A DNA stretch of 64,000 nt from Halopelagius longus. Its GTDB lineage: Archaea; Halobacteriota; Halobacteria; Halobacteriales; Haloferacaceae. Shown here one piece after another: positions 16,438 through 19,110 of this stretch. The DNA is taken from positions 868,001-932,000 of the forward strand of contig NZ_FNKQ01000001.1 in NCBI RefSeq assembly GCF_900100875.1. Reading direction: 5' to 3'. Made by a program: the position numbers and the translations under genes. Position 1 is the stretch's first letter, and each line of letters opens with the position of its first letter. The notes under the pieces are model-generated. The model was not told where the DNA came from and did no database searches. It saw only the letters and a program-made list of their open reading frames with translations.

Positions 16438-18702
16438 TTACTGGAACGTGCGGCTGACTTCCGTCTCGGAGGTCGGTTCGACGTCGCTCGTCTGGAACCG
16501 TTCCTCTATCTCCTCGTAGCGTTCGCGCACCTCTTGGGTGACGCTCGGGCCGACTTCGCCGAGAGCGTCCTCGAAGTGCTCCATCGTCACGCGGACGTTG
16601 CCGACGGACTCGGCGACTTCCTCGGGCGAGACGCTGTGGATGAACTCCCGACTCGCGGCCATCGACGCCTCGCGGCAGACCGCTTCGATGTCGGCGCCGA
16701 CGTAGCCCTCGGTGCGTTCCGCGAGTTCGTCTAAGTCCACGTCGTCGGCCAACGGTTTCTGCTGGGTGTGCACGTCGAAGATGGCGCGGCGCGCGTCCTC
16801 GTCCGGGACGGGCACGTGGACGTGCCTGTCGAGGCGGCCCGGCCGCAGGAGGGCCGAGTCGATGAGGTCCGGACGGTTCGACGTGGCGATGACGACCACG
16901 TCCTCGAGGGCTTCGAGGCCGTCGAGTTCGGTCAAGAGTTGCGAGACGACGCGTTCGGAGACGCCCGAGTCGCCGGTGTTCTGCCCGCGTTCGGTCGCGA
17001 TGGAGTCTATCTCGTCGAAGAACACCACCGTGGGGGCGTTCTCGCGGGCCTTCGAGAACACCTCGCGGACGCCCTTCTCGGACTCCCCGACGAACTTGTT
17101 GAGGAGTTCGGGGCCCTTCACGGAGATGAAGTTCGAGTCGGCCTCGTTCGCGACGGCCTTCGCGAGCAGGGTCTTCCCGGTGCCCGGCGGGCCGTAGAGC
17201 ATGACGCCCTTCGCGGACTGCATGTCCATGGCCTCGAACACCTCGGGGTACTCGAGGGGCCACTGGATGGTCTCGCGGAGGCGCTCTTTCGTGTCCTCGA
17301 GGCCGCCGACGTCCTCCCACGTCACGTCGGGGACTTCGACGAACACCTCGCGGAGGGCGGAGGGCTCGATGCCCTTCATCGCCTCCTTGAAGTCGTCGGG
17401 GCGGACTTCGAGCGACTCCAGCACTTCGGCGTCTATCTCCTCGGCTTCGAGGTCGAGTTGCGGGCGGATGCGGCGCAGCGCCGTCATCGCCGCCTCCTTG
17501 GCGAGACTCTCCAAGTCGGCACCGACGAAGCCGTGCGTGTTGTCGGCGTACGCGTCGATGTCGACGTCCTCGGTGAGCGGCATGTTCCGCGTGTGGACCT
17601 GCAGGATCTCCTTGCGGCCGTCGCGGTCGGGGACGCCGATCTCGATCTCGCGGTCGAAGCGGCCGCCGCGGCGCAGGGCGGGGTCGATGGCGTCGACGCG
17701 GTTGGTCGCCCCGATGACGACCACTTCGCCGCGTTCGTCGAGGCCGTCCATCAGCGAGAGCAGTTGCGCGACGACGCGACGTTCCACGTCGCCGCCCGCT
17801 TCACCGCGCTTGGGCGCGATGGAGTCTATCTCGTCGATGAAGACGATGGCCGGGGCGTTCTCCTCGGCCTCCTCGAATATCTCGCGGAGTTGCTCTTCGG
17901 ACTCCCCGTAGTACTTCGACATTATCTCGGGGCCCGAGATGGTGTGGAACGAGGCGTCTATCTCGTTGGCCACCGCCTTGGCGATGAGCGTCTTCCCGGT
18001 GCCCGGCGGACCGTGGAGGAGGACGCCCTGCGGCGGTTGGATGCCGAGGCGCTTGAACAGTTCCGGGTGCCGCATCGGGAGTTCGATCATCTCCCGGACC
18101 TGTTCGAGTTCCCTGTCGAGGCCGCCGATGTCCTCGTACGCGACGGAGGGACCCTCGCCGGTGCCGCCGCCGCCGGTTTCGCGGATCTCCTCGGCGGGTT
18201 TCTGGCTTATCTGGACCTCGGTCGAGTCGGTGATGACGACCGTCCCCTGCGGTTGCGTGGAGGCGACGCGGACGGGGACCGTCTGGTTCGAGGAGGTCAT
18301 GAAGCCGAAGCCCAGCGGAAGCTGGAGGCTCTGACCCTTCGTGACGGGCTGTCCGGAGAGCTTGTCCCGGATGTACGTCCCGACGTTGCCGCCGATGCGG
18401 AGGTTCTGCGGGAGGGCGATAGAGACCCGCTTTGCGGGCTTGACGTCGGCTTTCTCCACCTCCACGCGGTCGTCGATGCCGACGCCCGCCTGCTGGCGGA
18501 GTCGGCCGTCGATGCGGATGACGCCGGTTCCCCGGTCCTCGGGGTAGCCGGGCCAGACGCGAGCGATGGCCGTGCCGTCGTCGTTCTCGATGCGGATGTA
18601 GTCTCCGCCCTCGAGACCGAGCGACTCGGCCGCCTCGCGGTCGATGGCCGCGAGTCCTCGACCGGCGTCCTTCTGCTTCAGCGGTTTAACGATGAGTTTC
18701 AT
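16438..18702 (-). CDS. cdc48: CDC48/VCP-family AAA+ ATPase
   Basis: The 754-residue protein has the full p97 architecture: N-domain (residues 1 to about 185, double-psi barrel then beta-clam), D1 AAA domain with Walker A GPPGTGKT (231-238) and Walker B IVFIDEID (286-293), and D2 with Walker A at 504-511 and Walker B VVFFDEID (559-566). It forms a hexameric unfoldase that feeds substrates to the proteasome and remodels complexes. The start is the ATG giving [10 protein letters not shown], overlapping the stop of the upstream Hsp20-like gene by 4 bases. The pair shares a promoter with a heat-shock-type operator at 18956-18970. Confidence 0.95.
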
Positions 18703-18947
18703 TTTTGAACGGTTATCGTGAGTACGCCGTTGTTCGTCTCGACCGATGCATCCTCTCCGGGGAGTTCGAGTTCCGTTTCGGTAACTCTGTCGCCCGATTC
18801 GACGACTACGATGGCCGTCGCGCCCACGATATCGACGCTCAGGTCTTCCTCGGGGAGACCCGTGTCGGCGGCGATAACCCAACTGTCGTCGTACTCGTAG
18901 CGGCGGATGAAACGCTCGTTTCCGCCGGCGAACTGTTGCGTGTCCAT
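18699..18947 (-). CDS. Hsp20/alpha-crystallin-like small protein upstream of cdc48
   Basis: The 82-residue protein begins [21 protein letters not shown] and consists largely of beta-strand sequence that follows the alpha-crystallin core: a strand-rich [18 protein letters not shown], then [10 protein letters not shown], then NNGVLTITV near the C-terminus, the position of the classic GVL motif of small heat-shock proteins. It is shorter than a canonical Hsp20 and matches a haloarchaeal domain of unknown function. The ATG at 18947 is preferred to an upstream TTG at 18965. Its stop overlaps the cdc48 start (ATGA), so the two are translationally coupled. Confidence 0.72.
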
Positions 18948-18955
18948 GTTGGTTC

Positions 18956-18970
18956 CTAACTCCAAGTTAG
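18956..18970 (-). promoter_or_regulatory. CTAAC-N5-GTTAG palindrome, heat-shock-type operator
   Basis: The 15-base sequence CTAACTCCAAGTTAG, extended by one C/G pair and one T/A pair to a 7+7 inverted repeat, lies 9 bases before the Hsp20-like start codon and about 10 bases downstream of the TATA box. It therefore covers the predicted transcription start, where a repressor would block initiation. CTAAC-N5-GTTAG is the motif I recall for HSR1 of Archaeoglobus fulgidus, which controls an operon of an HSR1 gene, hsp20 and cdc48. Confidence 0.7.
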
Positions 18971-18979
18971 GTCCGCGAG

Positions 18980-18987
18980 TATTTAAA
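18980..18987 (-). promoter_or_regulatory. TATA box of the Hsp20-like/cdc48 operon
   Basis: On the minus strand TTTAAATA is centred about 36 bases before the Hsp20-like ATG. The predicted start, about 26 bases downstream, falls near 18958, inside the palindrome. Confidence 0.55.
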
Positions 18988-19110
18988 CCTGTCGCCCACT
19001 AATCGCGGTACGGCGTCGGGGTTCGGGTGAGTGAGTTGAATTGCGGTTCACACTGGTTCAGTGGGTGGGACCGGAGGTGGGTTTATACGCCGACGGAGCG
19101 AACTTCGGGT

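Follow-up and report, generated by a model that had tools for sequence, protein, structure and literature searches.

A perfect palindrome lies over the predicted transcription start of the DUF7127–cdc48 operon of Halopelagius longus. Which protein would read it, and does it belong to this operon or to a wider heat-shock regulon? HSR1 of Archaeoglobus fulgidus is reported to bind CTAAC-N5-GTTAG and to repress by blocking the transcription machinery (PMC9133787). The initial annotation had given this motif correctly and had pointed it out in the window, the whole 64-kb stretch of DNA that was analyzed.

A candidate operator between the TATA box and the first start codon

The features of the locus are listed in Table 1. 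As the initial annotation had described, the motif at 18956-18970 was perfect and lay in a 7+7 repeat. The repeat, CCTAACT-CCA-AGTTAGG, is a perfect dyad at 18955-18971 that encloses the operator. A scan of the window gave a single exact copy of CTAAC-N5-GTTAG, again as annotated. The site is located between the TATA box and the ATG of the DUF7127 gene. The TATA centre is 13-14 nt before the site, which ends 8 nt before the first ATG of the operon (18947-18945). The start position was predicted from the typical archaeal TATA-to-start distance. The main text of the H. volcanii start-site paper contained no entry for the DUF7127–cdc48 operon. With an HSR1 operator the site shares the exact dyad and a position at or next to the predicted transcription start, behind the TATA box and before a cdc48-containing operon.

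Table 1. Promoter elements and genes of the DUF7127–cdc48 locus, in window positions.
Feature	Position	Strand	Remarks
HSR1-type candidate operator, CTAACTCCAAGTTAG	18956..18970	(-)	Coding strand CTAAC-TTGGA-GTTAG; register common to 130 haloarchaeal cdc48 promoters; published HSR1 motif (PMC9133787)
TATA box, TTTAAATA	18980..18987 (read 18987-18980)	(-)	In 100 of 130 relatives, begins ~16 nt upstream of the operator
Predicted transcription start	18954..18960 (about 18957)	(-)	~26 nt from the TATA centre, within the GTTAG half-site; predicted from geometry
Second conserved upstream element, GAACCGCAATTCAAC	19035..19049	(-)	In most haloarchaeal families, 77-80 nt upstream of where the operator begins
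DUF7127 protein, first gene of the operon	18699..18947	(-)	82 aa; PF23444, E 4e-39; predicted minimal alpha-crystallin-domain (Hsp20-like) protein by fold
CDC48-family AAA+ ATPase	16438..18702	(-)	754 aa; TIGR01243, 1059 bits

The second element, GAACCGCAATTCAAC, may be an activator site or may belong to the divergent alpha/beta hydrolase gene. It is degenerate in family f4, and its exact copy in the H. longus genome is the only one there.

The two genes of the operon are tightly joined, the cdc48 ATG overlapping the DUF7127 stop codon (ATGA). The first gene had been called Hsp20-like. By sequence the call failed, as the protein scored 13.9 bits against the Pfam HSP20 model, whose cut-off is 20.8. 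By fold it stood. The AlphaFold model (pLDDT 79) had small heat shock proteins as its best matches (Foldseek 1.8e-4; VIA-align Z up to 9.2 over 72 residues, rmsd 2.2). On this model, DUF7127 is a predicted alpha-crystallin fold protein and is Hsp20-like.

The site is conserved in haloarchaeal cdc48 promoters

We sampled 30 DUF7127–cdc48 loci of the window's family and 100 further cdc48 upstream regions, covering nine families in all. Each of these 130 haloarchaeal promoters carried an operator-type site. Absence of the motif from orthologous haloarchaeal promoters had been set as a test that could refute the annotation, and this refutation failed. The right half-site was exactly GTTAG in 129 promoters, and the left half was looser, reading CTAAC in 74, CTTAC in 32, ATTAC in 18, and other sequences in 6. 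It is the right half that overlaps the predicted start. The end of the site was 1-10 nt before an ATG in 129 of 130. Half-site columns carried 1.0-2.4 bits of information, whereas most spacer and leader columns were below 0.7.

The best-matching site of each promoter was used, and the constant TATA register played no part in its selection. Within 60 nt before the first ATG (129 promoters), there were no mismatches to CTAAC/GTTAG in 74, one in 34, and two in 21. For the reversed motif, the same 60-nt regions always gave at least three mismatches. Block-shuffled promoters reached two or fewer mismatches ~3% of the time, and three other palindromes tested as controls showed no comparable conservation. 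The position and conservation of the site are far beyond chance.

The 3.87-Mb H. longus genome contains two exact copies of CTAAC-N5-GTTAG, which is about the chance frequency. With at most one mismatch there were 19 sites, versus 22 for the reversed control. As these counts resemble the control, frequency alone is uninformative, and conservation and position are what count. The second exact copy (L002) is located between divergent genes, without a chaperone gene and without an evident TATA box, and was treated as a chance occurrence. The genome-wide motif count, showing no excess, was rejected as regulon evidence.

Of 292 Halobacteria genomes, 287 gave a DUF7127 match. Where genomes of families f5 and f11 had none, the site stood immediately before the cdc48 ATG (CTTACCCATAGTTAG; degenerate forms CTTACTCTTGGTTAA and CTTACTTCTCGTAAC). 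Family f5 is the deepest haloarchaeal branch of the HSR1 tree. In Natrinema, CTTAC-N5-GTTAG precedes a related gene pair, labeled in GenBank as 'Hsp20/alpha crystallin family protein' and 'AAA family ATPase'. The candidate operator follows cdc48 rather than the neighbour genes. Some genomes of one genus in the window's family (g2) carry a true Hsp20 gene ~2 kb from the DUF7127–cdc48 operon (G006 C1:1490041-1490328).

Haloarchaea carry one HSR1 orthologue, unlinked from cdc48

An HSR1 profile search found one full-length HSR1 orthologue per genome in 59 of 59 Halobacteria genomes. The initial annotation had looked to an HSR1/Phr-type winged-helix regulator elsewhere in the genome, and one is indeed present in H. 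longus (G000 C1:694427-695083), ~191 kb from the operator. It matched the profile of cdc48-linked HSR1 proteins with an E of 3e-56. Its best PDB match was Phr (2P4W, 2e-21), far above SurR (2QLZ, 4e-4), and by this score SurR was ruled out as a nearer relative of haloarchaeal HSR1. CsmR of H. volcanii (HVO_1209, 13 kDa) was rejected as an orthologue because it is not full length. In the model of haloarchaeal HSR1 (pLDDT 72), a long helix is flanked by winged-helix-like parts at the two termini. One cysteine in the DNA-binding domain (PCYVTEIS) is retained in most haloarchaeal HSR1 proteins, and those of two genomes (L086 and L087) have a serine instead.

In the HSR1 tree, which included Archaeoglobus relatives but not the A. 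fulgidus type strain, the haloarchaeal proteins formed one clade (support 100/99) beside the HSR1 proteins of Methanosarcinia/Methanocellales, in agreement with orthology. The H. longus protein grouped with those of Halogeometricum pallidum and H. limi. Since the clade follows the organisms, inheritance looks vertical. None of 42 named haloarchaeal HSR1 loci had a cdc48 gene within 3 kb.

CTAAC-N5-GTTAA overlaps the HSR1 start codon (GTTA/ATG) at 19 of these 42 loci, mostly in Halorubrum, suggesting autoregulation. Halogeometricum and H. longus have a weaker form, TTTAC-N5-GTTAT, at this position. The HSR1 promoters of Haloferax, where the site was lost, and of Natrialbaceae-like genomes contained no recognisable site, indicating that autoregulation is not general. 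Haloarchaeal HSR1 genes (L076-L105) also lack a standard TATA box, and in its place they share an unusual, AGACACSCTTTTCAG-like promoter core ~30-40 nt upstream of the ATG.

In other Halobacteriota, HSR1 and cdc48 share an operon

In many non-haloarchaeal Halobacteriota, a Phr-related winged-helix gene (2P4W, 5.6e-20) precedes cdc48. Scanning public genomes with this winged-helix family gave 37 named non-haloarchaeal loci, from Archaeoglobaceae, Geoglobus, Ferroglobus, Methanocellales, Methanothrix, and others. All 37 had cdc48 directly downstream of HSR1, and 30 had hsp20 behind cdc48. The site upstream of HSR1 was exact in 29, had one mismatch in 5, and two mismatches in 3. Its spacing from the TATA box was the same as in haloarchaea. 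Several methanogen-like lineages (L053, L057, L059, L062, L299, and L302) have two tandem operator-like sites 14 bp apart upstream of HSR1 (CTAACCTAAGGTTAGTAACCTAAAGTTA), hinting at cooperative binding.

A. fulgidus HSR1 was reportedly placed by Rohlin in 2005 in one operon with cdc48 and hsp20. Partial accounts of this operon are given in two papers (PMC9133787, PMC5852551). The likeness that the initial annotation had drawn between the H. longus and A. fulgidus operons held in part. The proposed haloarchaeal circuit has in common with that of A. fulgidus HSR1 (AF1298) the operator sequence, the cdc48 target, an orthologous regulator, and an alpha-crystallin-type gene in the operon. In contrast to A. 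fulgidus, HSR1 is in trans and missing from the haloarchaeal operon, in which DUF7127 or cdc48 stands first. DUF7127 precedes cdc48, whereas hsp20 is behind cdc48 in A. fulgidus, and the haloarchaeal left half-site is often CTTAC or ATTAC. In the simplest history, an HSR1–cdc48–hsp20 operon would have been left by HSR1 and then joined by DUF7127, the operator being kept throughout.

The predicted target set of HSR1 is narrow

A conserved heat-shock regulon linking Archaeoglobus and haloarchaea had been suggested, on condition that the regulator occurs elsewhere in the genome, and the wider regulon was not borne out. No credible site was found in 30 thermosome upstream regions or in 30 upstream regions of true Hsp20 genes. 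The H. longus genome contained no other good candidate site, and its list of sites with at most one mismatch included none before the other cdc48 paralogues. The predicted HSR1 target set is narrow. The thermosome is likewise no member of the published HSR1 and Phr regulons (PMC10653856). Seven thermosome/Cpn60 matches were found in the H. longus genome, an unusual expansion, and four of the seven lie on contig C4 (G000 C4 82605-85753, 102791-104266, 195040-196539).

The hsp5–cdc48d pair on pNRC200 of Halobacterium NRC-1 (L269) mirrors the DUF7127–cdc48 pair, in that hsp5 precedes a cdc48 paralogue, and both hsp5 and cdc48d are reported to be heat-inducible. No operator was found in its promoter. 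This is in line with the report that the hsp5 heat promoter of Halobacterium/Haloferax, another case of haloarchaeal heat regulation of an Hsp20 gene, works via general factors without such a regulator, BRE and TATA being sufficient (PMC9133787). Two control modes therefore seem to exist for Hsp20-like/cdc48 pairs.

Proposed circuit and alternative explanations

The site, its register, the universal HSR1, and the sites at the HSR1–cdc48 operons of the rest of the phylum and at Halorubrum HSR1 genes together suggested that an HSR1–operator–cdc48 circuit has been conserved and that its regulator has moved to trans. The comparison strongly supported the predicted link between regulator and operator. 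The site is likely the operator of haloarchaeal HSR1, a trans-encoded, ArsR/Phr-type winged-helix repressor of DUF7127–cdc48. From sequence comparison we infer HSR1 binding, repression, and a stress signal, as follows. An HSR1 dimer would bind the palindrome and cover about -13 to +2 of the promoter. Bound HSR1 would exclude RNA polymerase, as described for Phr (PMC9133787), and the polymerase could then not join TBP/TFB at the TATA box. Heat or another protein-folding stress would release HSR1, and DUF7127 and Cdc48 would rise.

It is also probable, with somewhat less assurance, that all haloarchaea carry an HSR1 that left the ancestral operon yet governs essentially one target, the Cdc48 unfoldase operon, through an operator kept since the Halobacteriota ancestor. 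If true, this would be an ancient and narrow protein-quality control loop, parallel to the general-factor heat response. It would imply that an archaeal pairing of regulator, operator, and target has been kept since the common ancestor of the phylum despite lost gene linkage. Among the openly available papers, a 2022 review states that an HSR1-type mechanism has not been identified in halophiles, so the haloarchaeal circuit would be a new variant on the known HSR1 circuit. The comparative evidence predicts a dedicated repressor in the whole haloarchaeal class and specifies which regulator, which exact site, and which target would be involved. The circuit is testable in the genetically tractable Haloferax.

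HSR1 might bind the site and respond not to heat as such but to protein damage, salt, or redox, the circuit setting the Cdc48 level. We consider this possible but doubtful. A conserved target that is a single unfoldase operon would fit it, as would the lack of the site at thermosome and Hsp20 promoters. So would the cysteine that most haloarchaeal HSR1 proteins keep, the redox regulator SurR being in the same arCOG (PMC9426492). However, this cysteine is replaced by serine in two genomes. Moreover, cdc48b of Halobacterium NRC-1, although not necessarily the site-bearing paralogue, was up 5.6-fold on heat shock (PMC1971269), and an HSR1-family regulator and CDC48 of Methanonatronarchaeum (adjacent locus numbers) were both up at high temperature (PMC5852551).

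It is very unlikely that the conserved site is bound by a regulator other than HSR1. HSR1 is not linked to cdc48, and several genera show no obvious site at HSR1 itself, but HSR1 is universal, its inheritance looks vertical, and organisms with the site in common also have a conserved HSR1 DNA-binding domain. The site might instead be a core-promoter or leader element, either initiator-like or translational, that the basal machinery reads. This would account for the overlap with the predicted start and for the distance of 1-10 nt to the start codon that nearly all genomes show. This reading is even less credible, since the dyad is gene-specific and matches a published repressor motif exactly, thermosome and Hsp20 promoters lack it, it shows no genome-wide excess, and it recurs at the start of HSR1 itself. 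We give hardly any credence to a broad conserved heat-shock regulon marked by the site. Archaeoglobus and haloarchaea do share the motif, the regulator, and the cdc48 target, but the 60 thermosome and Hsp20 promoter regions and the heat-inducible hsp5–cdc48d pair have no site, and the H. longus genome has no excess. Chance or mere relatedness of the promoters agrees with the number of exact copies in one genome, but it was refuted by the reversed and shuffled controls and by a half-site that hardly varies across nine families next to flanking columns that are near-neutral, leaving it practically no probability.

Comparison of haloarchaeal HSR1 with Phr and SurR

Phr of Pyrococcus/Thermococcus is the best solved relative of haloarchaeal HSR1 and resembles what is predicted for it, being a repressor with a site over the transcription start, where Phr blocks recruitment of the polymerase (PMC9133787). 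Unlike the haloarchaeal site, that of Phr consists of TTTA, TGGTAA, and AAAA blocks in a span of 29 bp (PMC9133787). Phr also differs in controlling ten or more genes (PMC10746257). SurR (PF0095) belongs to the same broad winged-helix group. Its similarity to haloarchaeal HSR1 is much weaker than that of Phr, and the haloarchaeal proteins have at most one cysteine at the corresponding place.
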